In this document: positions 29,373 through 35,883 of the stretch, in pieces | Numbering within the stretch: the stretch's first letter is position 1 | How the letters are laid out: every line of letters starts with the position of its first letter | Source: Anaerolineae bacterium | Lineage (GTDB): Bacteria > Chloroflexota > Anaerolineae > Anaerolineales > E44-bin32 | NCBI GenBank assembly: GCA_011174845.1 | Contig: DUEW01000143.1 | Span: 1 to 35,884, forward strand | Direction: 5' to 3' | DNA: 35,884 nt | The notes under the pieces: generated by a model | Told to the model about the DNA's origin: nothing | The model's database searches: none | What the model saw: only the letters and a program-made list of their open reading frames with translations | Made by a program: the position numbers and the translations under genes

Positions 29373-30922
29373 CCTTGCGCAGTAAAATGTAACCCTTCCA
29401 CTCGATTGTTGACTGCAACGAGATTGACATAATTGCGGATGGGGAGAACGAGGGCTTCTTCTTGTACACGAGACGAAACTTGTTCATAGAGGTTTAACCG
29501 CGCGTCAAGATCAAGCGACTCTTGAGCTGCTTGGGTCAGCAACCGATCTATTTCTGGGTCTTCGAACTGAGACCAGTTGTAAAGGCCTGTGCTGGAGTAG
29601 AAAGATCGTAATAGATCGGGATCTGTGCCGAATAAGTTGATCCCGATCGCGTGATATTCGCCTTCTGCTTGGGCTTCTTTGAGTGGACCAAAGCCGGGTG
29701 CGATTTCTAATGTCACTCTAGCACCGATCGCTTCCCAATCCGCTCGGATCAATTGCGCCATCTCAGAATTGGATCCCCAGGGTGGCGCGACGATGTGAAG
29801 CTCGAGAGGAACGTCGTTTCTGCTTCGATGACCCTCTTCGTCGGTTATCCTCCATCCGACTTCATCCAACAATGTGCCAGCGGTTTCTGGATCATACGTT
29901 GGGAAGGATTCTTGAGGCTCGAGGTTAAAGGAGCTCGCCAAGAATGGACTATCAGCAACGGGAGAATACACACCGAAAATAGTCTTCACAGCTTGAGGTC
30001 GATTGATGGCATGGATTAGCGCTCGTCTTACCAGGGCAGCATCTGTTGGGGCCTTCTTGGTGTTAAAAAAGAACTGCATCGGTTGCCCCGGGATGGCTAT
30101 TGGGTAGAGATCGAAATCAGAGCTGACAGCAATTCGATCAGCATCGTGTGGGGGTATTTCACCTATGACGTCCACCTCACCACTCTCGAGGGCAATTGCA
30201 CGAGTGGCTGGATCTTCATAAAAGCGAAATACAATGGTATCGATTTTGGCTTTTGCATTTTGGTAAATCGATGGCGCCCATGCGTAATCCGGGTTACGGG
30301 TGAGGGTTATCTTATCGTTTGGAATGTATTCAACAAAACGATACGGTCCTGTACCGACCTGGTGGAATTGATACTCGGTAGGTCCCCAGGTCTCAAGAGC
30401 TACTGGGGAAGCCATTCCTAAGTACACATCGGAAAGGGAATCAAGTAAGGGTGCGAAAGGTTCACTCAGATATAGCGCCACAGTGTAGTCATCGATGATT
30501 TCTACTTCCTGGAGGGGTCCGAGCATAAATTGAGCTTTCTGGGAGTGATGATCTGGATTCATCACATATTCCAAGTTGGCTTGTACTGCTTGTGCATTGA
30601 ATATGGTACCGTCATGGAAGGTCACACCGCGGCGAAGAAAGAAGGTGTATGTTAATCCGTCGGGAGAGATTGACCAGGTCTCCGAAAGCCCGGGTACGAA
30701 CTCGCCTGAGGCTGGATCACGAAACACCAAGGTGTCATAAACAGATGCGAGCGGGATACCTAACTCTGAGGAGGCGTTGAGATGAGGGTCGATCCCGGTG
30801 GGGGAAAGGGTCAATCCATAGACTAAAGTGGAGGACTCCTTTGTACCGATAGAACAGGCTGTCGAGGTTGAGACGAAGAGAAATATGAGGATGATCAGCG
30901 GTATGAGTCGTCGGTGTTTCAT
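29333..30922 (-). CDS. family 5 solute-binding lipoprotein (peptide/oligosaccharide type)
   Basis: This 529-residue extracytoplasmic receptor belongs to the DppA/OppA/NikA family. A lipoprotein signal peptide (MKHRRLIPLIILIFLFVSTS) ends at lipidated Cys 23 in TAC. The mature sequence has the family signature GLSETWSISPDGLTYTFFLRRGVTFHDG and the GTGPYRFVEYIPNDKITLTRN block. YDPETAGTLLDEVGW is near the C-terminal lobe. The family binds peptides, nickel and several oligosaccharides. The ATG at 30922 overlaps the ROK stop by four bases, which makes sugar transport worth considering. Confidence 0.93.
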   Translation of the reverse strand: MKHRRLIPLIILIFLFVSTSTACSIGTKESSTLVYGLTLSPTGIDPHLNASSELGIPLASVYDTLVFRDPASGEFVPGLSETWSISPDGLTYTFFLRRGVTFHDGTIFNAQAVQANLEYVMNPDHHSQKAQFMLGPLQEVEIIDDYTVALYLSEPFAPLLDSLSDVYLGMASPVALETWGPTEYQFHQVGTGPYRFVEYIPNDKITLTRNPDYAWAPSIYQNAKAKIDTIVFRFYEDPATRAIALESGEVDVIGEIPPHDADRIAVSSDFDLYPIAIPGQPMQFFFNTKKAPTDAALVRRALIHAINRPQAVKTIFGVYSPVADSPFLASSFNLEPQESFPTYDPETAGTLLDEVGWRITDEEGHRSRNDVPLELHIVAPPWGSNSEMAQLIRADWEAIGARVTLEIAPGFGPLKEAQAEGEYHAIGINLFGTDPDLLRSFYSSTGLYNWSQFEDPEIDRLLTQAAQESLDLDARLNLYEQVSSRVQEEALVLPIRNYVNLVAVNNRVEGLHFTAQGWYPILIDLQLAP

Positions 30923-31866
30923 TCTTGACTAGCGAGGACCATAGCTCCGATAAGGCCAGCGTCATCGCCTAAGGCAGCCGGAGCGATTCGAAGGTTCATC
31001 ATATAGGCTGGGCTTATTAAATGGGCTTCAAACGCACGTTCGAGAGGCTCAAAGAGGAGTGATCCAAGTTGTGAAACACCACCACCGATCACAAAGACTT
31101 CCGGGTTAAACGCATGGGCTAAATCTGCCATATGGCGACCTATGTACTCAGCGGCTTGTTCAATGACTTCGCAAGCAAGTGGGTCACCAGCTTGTGCTGC
31201 CTCACCAACATCCACGGCGGTCATCTTTTCGTTCGATTCTAATCTCTCTTTGAGAACAGAAGGTTGTCCAGCTTCTATTCTGGCCGTCGCGCTTCTTGCG
31301 ATGGCGGGGCCGGAAGCGACTGCTTCTAAATGCCCAAGTTGCCCACAACTACAGATAGGGCCACCAGGCTCGACCGTCATATGACCAAGTTCGGCACCCA
31401 AACCCCAACTGCCAATTAGAAGCTTATTGTCAATAATAACACCACCACCGATCCCGGTGCTGATCGTGAGGTATATTAGATCGGACGTGCCCTGTCCAGC
31501 GCCGAAACGCCATTCACCGAGGGCAGCGAGGTTCGCATCATTACCTACCAACACCGGGCAAACAAATCTCACTTCAAGGATCGACCGAAGCGGGATCATT
31601 TCCCAACCGGGGAGGTTGACCGCCTTGAGCACCATACCATGTCTGGGATCTAATGGGCCTGGTGCACCGACACCAATACGTAAGTCCTTGCGATCTTCTG
31701 GTAATTGTGCTTCGATAGCTTGAGACAGACGCTCGATCACGGCGTCCGGACCTTCAGATGCGAGAGTTGGTGTTTTGCTTTGTGTAAGAGGTGGAGGTTC
31801 CGGGTTGGGGAAGTAGGCTACTCGGATATTGGTTCCTCCGAGGTCGACAGCGATAAATTGTGACAT
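30919..31866 (-). CDS. ROK-family sugar kinase (glucokinase-like)
   Basis: ROK proteins are sugar kinases or sugar-responsive repressors. This 315-residue member lacks a DNA-binding domain, so it is a kinase. The ATP site is DLGGTNIR (8-15), the catalytic Asp is D110 in VGNDAN, and STGIGGG (136-142) is intact. Zinc-site residues are H162 in ELGHM, C172 and C174, but the usual third Cys is His 179 (GQLGHLE instead of GCLE). This variant is known in the family and may still bind zinc. It is first in an operon whose other genes encode a family-5 importer. It likely phosphorylates glucose or a related sugar. Confidence 0.92.
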   Translation of the reverse strand: MSQFIAVDLGGTNIRVAYFPNPEPPPLTQSKTPTLASEGPDAVIERLSQAIEAQLPEDRKDLRIGVGAPGPLDPRHGMVLKAVNLPGWEMIPLRSILEVRFVCPVLVGNDANLAALGEWRFGAGQGTSDLIYLTISTGIGGGVIIDNKLLIGSWGLGAELGHMTVEPGGPICSCGQLGHLEAVASGPAIARSATARIEAGQPSVLKERLESNEKMTAVDVGEAAQAGDPLACEVIEQAAEYIGRHMADLAHAFNPEVFVIGGGVSQLGSLLFEPLERAFEAHLISPAYMMNLRIAPAALGDDAGLIGAMVLASQE

Positions 31867-31888
31867 GCGAGGAGTATATCATATAGGC

Positions 31889-31917
31889 TTGATGTTTGGC
31901 ATGGCTCAGCTTAGAAT
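31889..31917 (+). promoter_or_regulatory. mutS promoter, possibly for a leaderless mRNA
   Basis: TTGATG (31889-31894) is separated by 17 bases from TAGAAT (31912-31917), a good sigma-70 pair. The mutS ATG at 31927 lies only nine bases past the -10, and no ribosome-binding site is present. The transcript would have almost no leader. Confidence 0.55.
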
Positions 31918-31926
31918 GCATCTGTG

Positions 31927-34509
31927 ATGAGCAGGAAGATAACCCCCATACGTAAACAATACTTGGAGATCAAGCGTCGCTATCCGGACGCAATTCTCTT
32001 CTTCAGGCTCGGTGATTTCTACGAGACCTTCGACGAAGATGCAGAAATCACGTCCCGCGAGTTAGACATTGTCCTCACCTCACGCAATGTGGCCAAGGGT
32101 GATCGGGTGCCCATGGCAGGCATTCCACATCACGCAATCGATAACTACTTAGCCAGATTAATCGAGAAAGGCTATCACGTAGCAATTTGCGAGCAGGTGG
32201 GGGACGGACCTGTGAATGGCCTATTTCCCCGCGAGGTGGTACGAGTGGTCACACCCGGGACAGTGGTTGAGCCAGACATGCTTCCGAGCGATAGCAATAA
32301 CTTTCTCGCAGCAGTGGTTGCTGATGACGAATCCGTGGGGATAGCCTATGTCGATATTACGACGGGTGAATTCGCAACCACACAGATCAGGGCGTCATTT
32401 CCTCAGAGCGCTATTCGGCACGAATTGACACGCCTTCAACCAGCCGAGGTGATCGTGCCGGAATCGCTGTCGCTTGAGAACGAATGGGATGGACACCTCA
32501 CTCCAATATCGGATTGGAAATTTGAAGTAGATCGAGCAGTTGAGACGTTAAAAGATCATTTTGGAACGGCTACGCTTGACGGTTTCGGCTTAGCAGATCA
32601 CTCTCTTGCTTCACGTGCAGCGGGTGCGATCGTCGATTATCTGAAACAAACCCAACAAGCTGCGCTTCAATTGCTTACAGGTCTTTCGACCTACTCGCTG
32701 GATGAATTTATGGTATTGGACGCGGCAACGCGCAGGAATCTTGAATTAACTGAGACTCTACGAACGGGAGAGGTTCGCGGTTCGTTGTTGGGCGTTCTCG
32801 ACTCGTCAGTGTCACCGATGGGTAAGCGCATGCTTCGCCAATGGATAGGGAAACCATTATTGGATCTAGAACGCATTCGTTGTCGACAAGACCAAATCGA
32901 AGCGCTATTTTCGGAAGGTCTTTTGAGGGCTGAATTGCGAAAGGCCTTGGGCGCTCTCGGTGATTTAGAGCGACTGACGAACCGTGTCGCAGCGGGCGTT
33001 GCGGGACCGCGCGACTTGGTTGGGTTGAGAAAAGTTATCCAAAACCTTCCTCCGATCATTGATTTACTGGAAGGTTACGAGGATGGAGCATTAGGTTCGA
33101 TCATCTCAAGCCTCGATCCATGTGTTGAAGTGCGTGAGTTACTGGAGCAAGCATTGTCCGACGAACCCCCTGCTACTCTAACCCACATCGGCGTAATCCG
33201 AGAGGGATATTCTCAGGAATTAGATGGGGTTCTCGCGTCCTCGCGCGATGCGCGTGATTGGATCGCTCGATTGGAATCAGTGGAACGGGAAAGAACTGGA
33301 ATCAAAAACCTCAAGGTTGGATATAACAAGGTTTTTGGATACTACATCGAAGTTACGAGGGCCAATACTGAACGTGTTCCTGATGAGTACATCCGCAAAC
33401 AAACATTGGTCAATGCTGAGCGTTATATCACACCAGAAATGAAAGAGTATGAGTCTCTTGTCCTCAATGCGGAGGATCGTCTCCGCGAGATCGAAAACCG
33501 GTTGTTCAAGGAACTTTGCCAGCGGATAGCAGAACAGGCTCCGCACCTTCTCGACACAGCCCGGGCATTGGCAAGGTTAGACGTCGTAGGATGCTTGGCG
33601 GAGACCGCTGCTAATAAGGGTTATGTGAGGCCAGAAGTTATTGAGGAGGATATCATCGAAATCCGTGACGGTCGTCACCCCGTCGTTGAAGAATTCCTGC
33701 CAGGTTCACGCTTCGTCCCCAATGACACAGTATATGAAGAAGATGAGCGGATACGAATCATCACCGGTCCTAATATGAGCGGAAAATCAACATACCTTCG
33801 ACAAGTAGCTTTGATCGCTTTGATGACTCAGATGGGAAGCTACATCCCTGCTCGCTCTGCTCGCATGGGGCTCGTGGATCGAATTTTTACCCGTATTGGC
33901 GCGCAGGACGAAATTCACGCTGGCCAATCCACTTTCATGGTCGAGATGGTCGAAACAGCGAATATCCTACACCATGCTTCGATCCGCAGCTTGTTGATCC
34001 TGGATGAGATTGGACGTGGCACAAGCACTTACGATGGTGTGTCGATCGCATGGGCGGTGGTGGAATACATCCACAACCATCCTCGGCTTCGTGCTCGAAC
34101 GTTATTTGCAACTCATTATCACGAACTAACGCATCTCTCGAACGTTCTACCGGGTGTTCGTAACTACAACGTCGCTGTGTCTGAAGAAGGCGGAGATGTG
34201 GTTTTTCTTCACAAGATCGTTCCCGGTGGAGCGGATAAGTCCTATGGGATTCATGTCGCTGAGTTGGCTGGCCTTCCACGACCCGTAATTAACCGAGCTC
34301 AGGAAATCCTGGCATTGTTTGAGGCAGAGTCTCGTGACGTACGGGGTGGGGAGCAGATTCCCGCCCGTCAGATGGCGCTCTTCCCTGAAACCAACCCGCT
34401 CTTAGAGGAATTACAAAAGATCGATGTCACCTCGTTGACCCCTCTCGAGGCGTTGAATCGACTCTACGAATGGCAACAGCGTTTTCTTGAGTCGGATGAG
34501 GAGATATAG
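31927..34509 (+). CDS. mutS: DNA mismatch repair protein MutS
   Basis: MutS recognises mismatches and loops and starts repair. The 860-residue protein is complete. The mismatch-wedge motif FYE is at residues 31-33 (LGDFYETF). The connector, lever and clamp regions are present. Walker A GPNMSGKST lies near 613, and LLILDEIGRGTSTYDG (Walker B and the dimer-contact region) near 690-705. ATHYHELTHL follows, and the C-terminal helix-turn-helix has PVINRAQEILALFE. The ATG at 31927 is preferred over GTG 31924. It is divergent from the ROK operon across about 60 bases. mutL is not in the window. Confidence 0.98.
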   Translation: MSRKITPIRKQYLEIKRRYPDAILFFRLGDFYETFDEDAEITSRELDIVLTSRNVAKGDRVPMAGIPHHAIDNYLARLIEKGYHVAICEQVGDGPVNGLFPREVVRVVTPGTVVEPDMLPSDSNNFLAAVVADDESVGIAYVDITTGEFATTQIRASFPQSAIRHELTRLQPAEVIVPESLSLENEWDGHLTPISDWKFEVDRAVETLKDHFGTATLDGFGLADHSLASRAAGAIVDYLKQTQQAALQLLTGLSTYSLDEFMVLDAATRRNLELTETLRTGEVRGSLLGVLDSSVSPMGKRMLRQWIGKPLLDLERIRCRQDQIEALFSEGLLRAELRKALGALGDLERLTNRVAAGVAGPRDLVGLRKVIQNLPPIIDLLEGYEDGALGSIISSLDPCVEVRELLEQALSDEPPATLTHIGVIREGYSQELDGVLASSRDARDWIARLESVERERTGIKNLKVGYNKVFGYYIEVTRANTERVPDEYIRKQTLVNAERYITPEMKEYESLVLNAEDRLREIENRLFKELCQRIAEQAPHLLDTARALARLDVVGCLAETAANKGYVRPEVIEEDIIEIRDGRHPVVEEFLPGSRFVPNDTVYEEDERIRIITGPNMSGKSTYLRQVALIALMTQMGSYIPARSARMGLVDRIFTRIGAQDEIHAGQSTFMVEMVETANILHHASIRSLLILDEIGRGTSTYDGVSIAWAVVEYIHNHPRLRARTLFATHYHELTHLSNVLPGVRNYNVAVSEEGGDVVFLHKIVPGGADKSYGIHVAELAGLPRPVINRAQEILALFEAESRDVRGGEQIPARQMALFPETNPLLEELQKIDVTSLTPLEALNRLYEWQQRFLESDEEI

Positions 34510-34620: not shown

Positions 34621-35883
34621 TCAATCGGATGTTTTTGAAACCAAATCAGGGTATTCCTGTGGCACTGCCTCGGTCTCTTCAACTCCAAGTTCACGTAAGA
34701 GTTCGGAGATCTTCTCTGCCTTGAGTTCGGCGTCGCGTCGCGACCATGTGCGGCTTTTTATTTCAAGGAAGCAACCTTCCAATGCCGGCTTTAGCACCCT
34801 GTCGATGTTCACGAAGAGTTCTACTCCCTGGTAACGCAACAGCCACCGTATTCTATCCTTATTGATTTCGATCTCGTCGGTGGGATTGAAATATTCGTGG
34901 TAAAAGCGTGAACTATGCTGGGCGGGTGCGATGAAGCGTGACCTAGAGAGAAGAACTGAATCGGGATACTCATGCTCTGCTGCCGGTCCGGTTAATGTAA
35001 GTCGGTACCTGACGTTGAAGATGTTGCCATCGTCGTCGATGAAATCGTCTTCTCGATAACGCAATCGCCCATCACGGGGGTTGTCAAAGGAAAAATAGCT
35101 ATCGTATTCAAGATAATGTGCAGTACGCACGACCTCAAATTCCCCGGAGTTTAATTTCTCAAGAACCGGATCTGGTTCAGGAAGCCGAACTTTGACCTGG
35201 ACTTCGTAGCTCTCTTCCTGCCTGGCACCACCGATCGCTATGAGTTTAGAAAGCACGGACCCTTCTCGTTCGATAAGAAAGGTATCGATCCGTTGCGCAT
35301 ACTCCGCAGCAGCCTCAAGTAGACTCTCCTCATTCAATGTGAGGAGTTCCCGATCTCGCATTAACCATTTTCCGTTGACCATCACATCGGTCACATCGGT
35401 GGATTTCGTCGCATAGACCAAACGTGAGTAAATCGCCTCGGGGTCACGAGCGAAGTGGGGGTAGTTATGAGTGGTTTCCATGTCCACCAAAACCAGATCG
35501 GCTCGTTTCCCGGGCTTGAGTGATCCGGTCAATTCACCGAGGTGCAGTGCTTTCGCGCCCATCGAGGTAGCCATTTCGAACACTTGCCGCGCCGGTAAAG
35601 CCGTTGGATCTTTTGTAATAGCCTTGGCGATGAACGTCGCCAATCTCATTTCCTCGAAGAGATCAAGATCATTGTTGGAGGCCGGACCATCGGTAGCTAA
35701 ACCCACGTTCAGACCGGTTTCGAGCATTTCGGTTATGGGGGCGAAACCGGATGCAAGTTTAAGGTTGCTGGATGGATTATGAGCCACGCCGGTACCGGCA
35801 TGCTCTAGGGTATGGATTTCGCCTTCATCAACATGAACGCAATGCGCAGCAATGACTTTCGCTTCAAGCAGGCCCAACTTCTT
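34621..35883 (-). CDS. MTA/SAH deaminase-type amidohydrolase fused to a CYTH domain (5' end outside window)
   Basis: The gene runs off the right edge and encodes the C-terminal 420 residues. The first part (to about residue 215) is an amidohydrolase of the methylthioadenosine/S-adenosylhomocysteine deaminase type. It has AKVIAAHCVHVDEGEI, VAHNPSSNLKLASGFAPI and LATDGPASNNDLDLFEEMRL, retaining the metal and catalytic His and Asp. From about residue 224 a CYTH domain (the class IV adenylate cyclase / thiamine-triphosphatase fold) follows in the same frame: EVQVKV (an ExQxK variant of ExExK), RYRE, RYRLTLTG, FVNIDRV and GCFLEIKSRTW. The frame is continuous with no stop. No family with this exact domain order comes to mind. 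A link to nucleotide or triphosphate chemistry is inferred. Confidence 0.85.
   Translation of the reverse strand, partial: KKLGLLEAKVIAAHCVHVDEGEIHTLEHAGTGVAHNPSSNLKLASGFAPITEMLETGLNVGLATDGPASNNDLDLFEEMRLATFIAKAITKDPTALPARQVFEMATSMGAKALHLGELTGSLKPGKRADLVLVDMETTHNYPHFARDPEAIYSRLVYATKSTDVTDVMVNGKWLMRDRELLTLNEESLLEAAAEYAQRIDTFLIEREGSVLSKLIAIGGARQEESYEVQVKVRLPEPDPVLEKLNSGEFEVVRTAHYLEYDSYFSFDNPRDGRLRYREDDFIDDDGNIFNVRYRLTLTGPAAEHEYPDSVLLSRSRFIAPAQHSSRFYHEYFNPTDEIEINKDRIRWLLRYQGVELFVNIDRVLKPALEGCFLEIKSRTWSRRDAELKAEKISELLRELGVEETEAVPQEYPDLVSKTSD

Follow-up and report, generated by a model that had tools for sequence, protein, structure and literature searches.

The window, a stretch of 35,884 nucleotides that makes up the whole of contig C50, ends inside a gene in which an MTA/SAH-deaminase-type amidohydrolase is joined in frame to a CYTH domain. 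That the fusion and the fold are real we hold with very high confidence. Judged from the aligned residues, the second metal site of the CYTH domain is altered in all 79 sequences compared, and the basic tunnel residues and the site-1 Glu are invariant. The gene lies on the minus strand as a single open frame of 420 codons and a stop codon (34621-34623), and it runs open off the contig end, so that its 5' end is cut. The original prediction that one continuous frame holds both domains was borne out, since Pfam finds Amidohydro_1 and then CYTH along the window protein. A near-identical piece for the N-terminal half was not found in the window's own genome (G000), and relatives were therefore used for the 5' part. 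The features of the frame are as follows, with residues numbered as in the protein of locus L005.

34621..35883, minus strand: single open frame of the fused protein (3' 420 codons and stop, 5' end beyond the contig; relatives about 660 amino acids in one frame)
35842..35844, minus strand: His metal ligand (H255; 79/79 sequences; ligand role by amidohydrolase family)
35689..35691, minus strand: Asp metal ligand (D306; 79/79 sequences)
35266..35883, minus strand: C-terminal half of the MTA/SAH-deaminase-type amidohydrolase domain (residues 242-447; Pfam Amidohydro_1, E 1.4e-37; best NCBIfam matches below equivalog cut-offs)
35230..35265, minus strand: helical linker joining the two domains (full-length model: helices 426-448 and 451-459)
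34624..35220, minus strand: CYTH / triphosphate-tunnel domain (Pfam CYTH, E 1.9e-5; model pLDDT 91, pTM 0.87; Z 18.2 to 2een; Foldseek E 1.4e-7)
35191..35205, minus strand: ExQxK, that is, ExExK with the second Glu changed to Gln (E468, Q470 and K472 invariant in 79; aligned to EVEVK)
35047..35061, minus strand: RxRED with arginines of the tunnel, R516 standing where the catalytic-type Arg would be (invariant in 79; aligned to LRLRxD)
34936..34944, minus strand: RSR of strand 5, R557 opposite a Glu of standalone CYTH proteins by alignment (R555 and R557, 79/79)
34846..34860, minus strand: KxRxR tunnel residues (K583, R585 and R587, 79/79)
34801..34803, minus strand: Asp of NxD, aligned with the LDE Asp of CYTH (D602, 79/79)
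34741..34764, minus strand: ExKxRTWS, that is, ExE with the second Glu changed to Lys, plus a family-specific RTWS (E615, K617, R619, T620, W621 and S622, 79/79; aligned to VEVE / VELE)
34642..34656, minus strand: C-terminal EYPDL, equivalent of the plug-helix SYxxL by alignment

That the contig ends inside the gene speaks for an artefact in which assembly or annotation had joined two adjacent genes, and we examined the frame in other genomes. Genome contigs were scanned with the CYTH part, short peptide patterns from the window protein serving as the query, and 23 loci were returned, all in Anaerolineae and other Chloroflexota genomes. Wherever the whole gene is present, no stop codon separates the CYTH part from the deaminase upstream of it, the frames measuring 655-719 amino acids; in three loci truncated by a contig end, the sequence that is there is fused too. 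Of 400 Chloroflexota genomes sampled, 90 match. One of these matches is weak and was not counted (G137), and three are incomplete: in the window's own genome the contig ends, in G142 the halves lie on different contigs, and in G387 the CYTH match (C54:3701-4249) sits in a frame of only 186 amino acids. The other 86 have frames of at least 657 amino acids, and all those fetched are fused. The fused frame is present on several single-contig genomes (for example G005, G112, G118, G134 and G238). When the deaminase domain was used for the search, matches at 47-68% identity all fell in frames of at least 658 amino acids, except in the contig-split G000 and G142, and the next-best matches, at no more than 41% identity, are unfused and come from frames of 445-483 amino acids. 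Separate genes with an intervening stop, which the original prediction had named as the observation to look for in independent assemblies, did not turn up, and the genomes searched hold no unfused close relative. With the same joined frame in 86 full-length cases and on single contigs, the artefact was rejected, and we give it next to no probability.

A tree of the deaminase domain from 28 fused and 20 unfused proteins places the fused ones on one branch (support 100/98), with MTA-deaminase-type enzymes of Photobacterium and Pseudomonas (P. aeruginosa) as nearest neighbours; the tree is midpoint-rooted, and some long unfused branches limit its finer reading. On this topology the fusion has a single origin, beside the proteobacterial MTA-deaminase-type enzymes. 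Among plasmids, none was found to match the fused protein over 80% of its length, and the best of the matches listed were confined to the deaminase part. One genome (G304) carries two copies of the fused gene (C121:16849-17448 and C53:23302-23901), and the other genomes listed carry one.

For the CYTH half, Pfam alone is a weak witness: the window protein scores 25.0 bits against a gathering cut-off of 23.2, the L005 protein scores 18.4, and no more than 10 of the 20 relatives compared get to E 0.01. The assignment therefore rests on a structure model and on profile-profile comparison. Because the fold search with the full-length model was filled by amidohydrolases, the CYTH part was modelled alone with AlphaFold from 22 sequences of the window and the loci, which gave a confident model with an eight-stranded tunnel fold (mean pLDDT 91, pTM 0.87). 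The best VIA-align matches of this model are 2een (Z 18.2, rmsd 2.2, 170 residues aligned), 7ns9 (Z 17.2) and 1yem (Z 17.2), followed by class IV cyclases and then plant TTM1, ygiF and ThTPase; Foldseek gave a best E value of 1.4e-7. At the level of sequence, neither phmmer nor profiles of the CYTH part found a meaningful match in the PDB. Using hhalign, the fused CYTH could be aligned in full with a profile of 11 standalone Chloroflexota CYTH proteins (probability 95.5%), and with the single standalone CYTH of the window's own genome only the last strand and the plug helix aligned. Thus the predicted structure did not lack the CYTH fold, the outcome that had been named as counting against the prediction, and both domain assignments made there, MTA/SAH-deaminase-type and CYTH, are supported. 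The standalone gene in the same genome (G000:C65:8015-8401; L027 1270-1905, minus strand) is of the canonical type, with EIEAK and VEVE, and adjoins genes resembling biotin carrier and biotin carboxylase proteins.

The profile alignment was used to compare the tunnel residues. It pairs EVQVK of the fused proteins with EVEVK of the standalone ones, LRYRED with LRLRxD, RSR with REE, KDR with KYR, and FLEIK with FVELE; it further sets the second Thr of LTLTGP against the Lys of LTFKGP, the Asp of NID against that of VLD, and EYPDF against the plug-helix NYLGL. The ExQxK variant, the RYRE segment (here RYRED) and the C-terminal ExK-like segment, all of which the original prediction had picked out, are present at 35191-35205, 35047-35061 and 34741-34764. 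The hallmarks of catalytic TTM and ThTPase proteins are absent: ExExK is ExQxK, and ExE of strand 8 is ExK with the first Glu kept, in 79 of 79 sequences each. Absent too is the HF motif of class IV adenylyl cyclase (CyaB), defined as HFxxxxExExK (PMC8233210); the residues before ExQxK are of the QEES(Y/F) type. The strand-3 RxR, which binds the beta and gamma phosphates in TTMs, is kept throughout (R516 and R518, 79/79), as are the site-1 Glu (E615), the first Glu of the acidic patch (E468) and the hallmark Lys (K472). The patch otherwise consists of Gln (Q470), Lys (K617) and, by profile alignment, Arg (R557).

Structures of AtTTM3 and ygiF offer a frame for reading these changes. At site 1, binding of Mg-triphosphate is completed by a Glu that is invariant in the characterised TTMs; site 2 is an acidic patch of Glu residues holding the metal that activates water; and mutation of a patch Glu or of the strand-3 Arg strongly reduces hydrolysis (PMC4641920, Martinez et al.). 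In SaTTM the second hallmark Glu (E7) lies with E135 at metal 1 (PMC8233210), and if it is placed so, a ligand of metal 1 would be missing from the fused CYTH as well. The two papers differ on the second hallmark Glu; both assign the second Glu of ExE to metal 2. The variant residues of the fused CYTH point to altered or lost hydrolysis, unlike an ordinary CYTH enzyme.

Conservation in the deaminase half is complete. The HxH, His, His and Asp metal ligands and the catalytic Glu are invariant in all sequences that cover them (H69, H71, H218 and E221, 78/78; H255 and D306, 79/79), and for this reason the deaminase is very probably active. The claim that its metal-binding motifs are intact held within the window for two of the five ligands; the other three lie outside it and are visible only in the relatives, where all five occur in every covering sequence. 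The nearest solved structures are 4dzh (Z 45.3), 4dyk/4gbd, 4f0r/4f0s and 3lnp (34-36% identity, Z 43-45). Among these, the MTA-deaminase-type enzyme of the P. aeruginosa group (4dyk/4gbd; PRK09045) and the C. violaceum MTA/SAH deaminase (4f0r/4f0s) resemble the fused domain over about 430 residues (Z 44-45) but have no CYTH domain. The best NCBIfam matches are 5'-deoxyadenosine deaminase and TRZ-ATZ models, and every curated equivalog cut-off was missed (PRK09045, 462 against 540 bits; PRK07228, 363 against 522; PRK15493, 309 against 779), so that the scores assign no substrate to the deaminase.

Genes for other routes were surveyed. In a set of 21 genomes, 17 of them with the fusion, all have an MTA phosphorylase-family gene, over the cut-off in 18, and no match to MTA/SAH nucleosidase exceeded the cut-off. 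The motif VTDYD(V/C)W, which we take to mark the adenine-recognising form of MTA phosphorylase, is present in 15 of the 16 phosphorylases examined. AhcY is general in the class (over the cut-off in 54 of 60 genomes), and six of eight AhcY sequences examined have HxTxE, the fingerprint of SAH-preferring AhcY (PMC10978960), the remaining two not being readable. Because an adenine-type MTA phosphorylase and an SAH-type AhcY are encoded, MTA and SAH can be disposed of here without deamination, though their deamination could still occur in these cells. MTA salvage or an SAH-to-SIH route was considered as the obvious role and is not supported, given the VTDYD phosphorylases and HxTxE AhcY proteins. 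Nor is removal of adenosine indicated as the sole role, with a classical adenosine deaminase in 15 of the 21 genomes. We infer 5'-deoxyadenosine to be a reasonable candidate substrate. In G325 the MTA phosphorylase match is split over two overlapping frames (C2:594972-595301 and 595291-595683), which looks like a frameshift or sequencing error.

Automatic clustering of gene neighbours was contaminated by antisense open frames, and only neighbours confirmed by family search were used; such searches confirmed three neighbour identities. Loci nearest to the window have a divergent pyrimidine-nucleoside phosphorylase gene upstream and a convergent mutS downstream. Positions 30919-34509 of the window hold mutS, a plus-strand gene that converges on the fused one, and a ROK-type sugar kinase; relatives such as L004, L005, L006 and L012 share this order. 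In other Anaerolineae cinA is directly upstream, overlapping or within tens of bases, at about six loci; at L022, L083, L086 and L095 the start of the fused gene is overlapped or almost reached by a gene of the cinA type. The second main clade has dephospho-CoA kinase (coaE) next downstream, and in six loci (L068, L071, L074, L075, L093 and L094) its start falls within the stop codon of the fused gene. Translational coupling of the two genes is suggested in that clade. The neighbours differ between clades, share nucleotide and cofactor metabolism, and point to no single ligand.

The reading that we favour, though we place it slightly short of an even chance, is that an active deaminase is attached to a tunnel that binds without hydrolysis and serves as regulator or anchor; the loss of hydrolysis is read from the residues only. 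The two-domain enzyme, an adenine-nucleoside deaminase of the MTA/SAH group with a CYTH domain, would have been made once, early in Chloroflexota. Its tunnel keeps the residues that hold a phosphate chain together with the Glu that completes Mg-triphosphate binding at site 1. The acidic patch for metal site 2 and activation of the attacking water has been altered: two of its Glu residues are replaced by Gln and Lys, and a third, by alignment, by Arg. Since the patch is altered and the phosphate-gripping residues are kept, the tunnel is predicted to bind a triphosphate- or polyphosphate-bearing ligand with little or no hydrolysis and to regulate or localise the attached deaminase, its role being probably that of a regulator. 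A more specific version, in which this metal-altered class of CYTH, found in two large Chloroflexota groups, is a sensor of triphosphate, polyphosphate or another phosphorylated nucleotide that gates the deaminase, is tentative and less likely than not. If it were true, salvage of purines or of SAM by-products would be tied to the energy or phosphate status of the cell.

Against binding without turnover stands the proposal, rather improbable in our estimate, that the CYTH is an enzyme in its own right, with an altered reaction (for example that of a pyrophosphatase, as in plant TTM1/2, or of a phosphotransferase, as in the yeast polyphosphate polymerase Vtc4), and that the fusion joins two enzymatic steps. 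In its favour, the tunnel Arg, the basic residues, the site-1 Glu and the ExQxK Lys are all invariant, and the plant TTM1/2 proteins are reported to use pyrophosphate without an ExExK hallmark (PMC8233210), so that activity of the fused CYTH may persist. In the tunnel fold of the Vtc4 polyphosphate polymerase basic residues replace the acidic patch, as in the fused CYTH; Vtc4p is basic at the positions of the AtTTM3 patch Glu residues and still works on ATP (PMC4641920). Vtc4 structures appear among the fold matches at Z 9.2-9.5, but the matches to hydrolases and cyclases are much stronger; Vtc4 is part of a eukaryotic membrane complex, the first hallmark Glu of the fused CYTH is kept and is not a basic residue, and the gene neighbours suggest no chemistry for a second step. 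Less probable still is a deaminase substrate that is phosphorylated or arrives via the tunnel, with the CYTH anchoring the phosphate of a nucleotide whose adenine the other domain deaminates. The routes that dispose of MTA and SAH without deamination fit this idea, and so do the stop/start overlap with coaE in one clade and the cinA directly upstream in another, both acting on nucleotides or cofactors; the deaminase domain, however, groups with MTA-deaminase-type enzymes, whose substrates are unphosphorylated. The smallest likelihood among these readings goes to a CYTH fold that is a structural or oligomerisation module with no small-molecule ligand, as in Mediator Med18/Med20, which do occur among the fold matches (Z 9.7-13.7). 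The invariant residues in the eight CYTH strands are mostly charged, and of the two faces that alternate along each strand one carries 19 of them and the opposite one 1. A mere scaffold would not require this pattern, which argues for a ligand-lined tunnel.

Several known systems share parts of this design. The archaeal CYTH/TTM proteins SaTTM (7ns9) and P. horikoshii PH1819 (2een) have the common fold (Z 17-18), the basic tunnel residues and the site-1 Glu, but are single-domain, and SaTTM has ExExK and ExE as metal ligands where the fused CYTH has ExQxK and ExK. Plant TTM1/TTM2 (kinase-CYTH, 7z67; Z 15.0) likewise fuse a CYTH that lacks ExExK to an enzyme domain; their partner, however, is of the phosphoribulokinase/uridine-kinase type, and they occur in plants and Amoebozoa (PMC8233210). 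E. coli ygiF is likewise a bacterial multidomain CYTH protein, but its partner is CHAD, both its metal sites are kept, and it hydrolyses PPPi (PMC4641920). A published network of CYTH proteins names multidomain clusters with CHAD and phosphoribulokinase partners and makes no mention of an amidohydrolase partner (PMC8233210). The original prediction knew of no described fusion of this kind, and we found no paper with CYTH and amidohydrolase together in the open-access literature searched, absence from which is not proof. The deaminase group and the fold are thus known, and the architecture and the state of the metal site were not found described in that literature.

The known activities of CYTH domains are those of hydrolases and cyclases and, in one distant relative, of a polymerase. 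A large bacterial group, conserved since ancient times, with a consistently altered second metal site and an invariant phosphate-gripping tunnel would provide a natural test of CYTH as a binding module, and because the tunnel is attached to a deaminase whose activity can be measured, ordinary enzyme assays can give the answer. The analysis also corrects annotation, in that the CYTH half is missed or falls under the Pfam threshold in many members.
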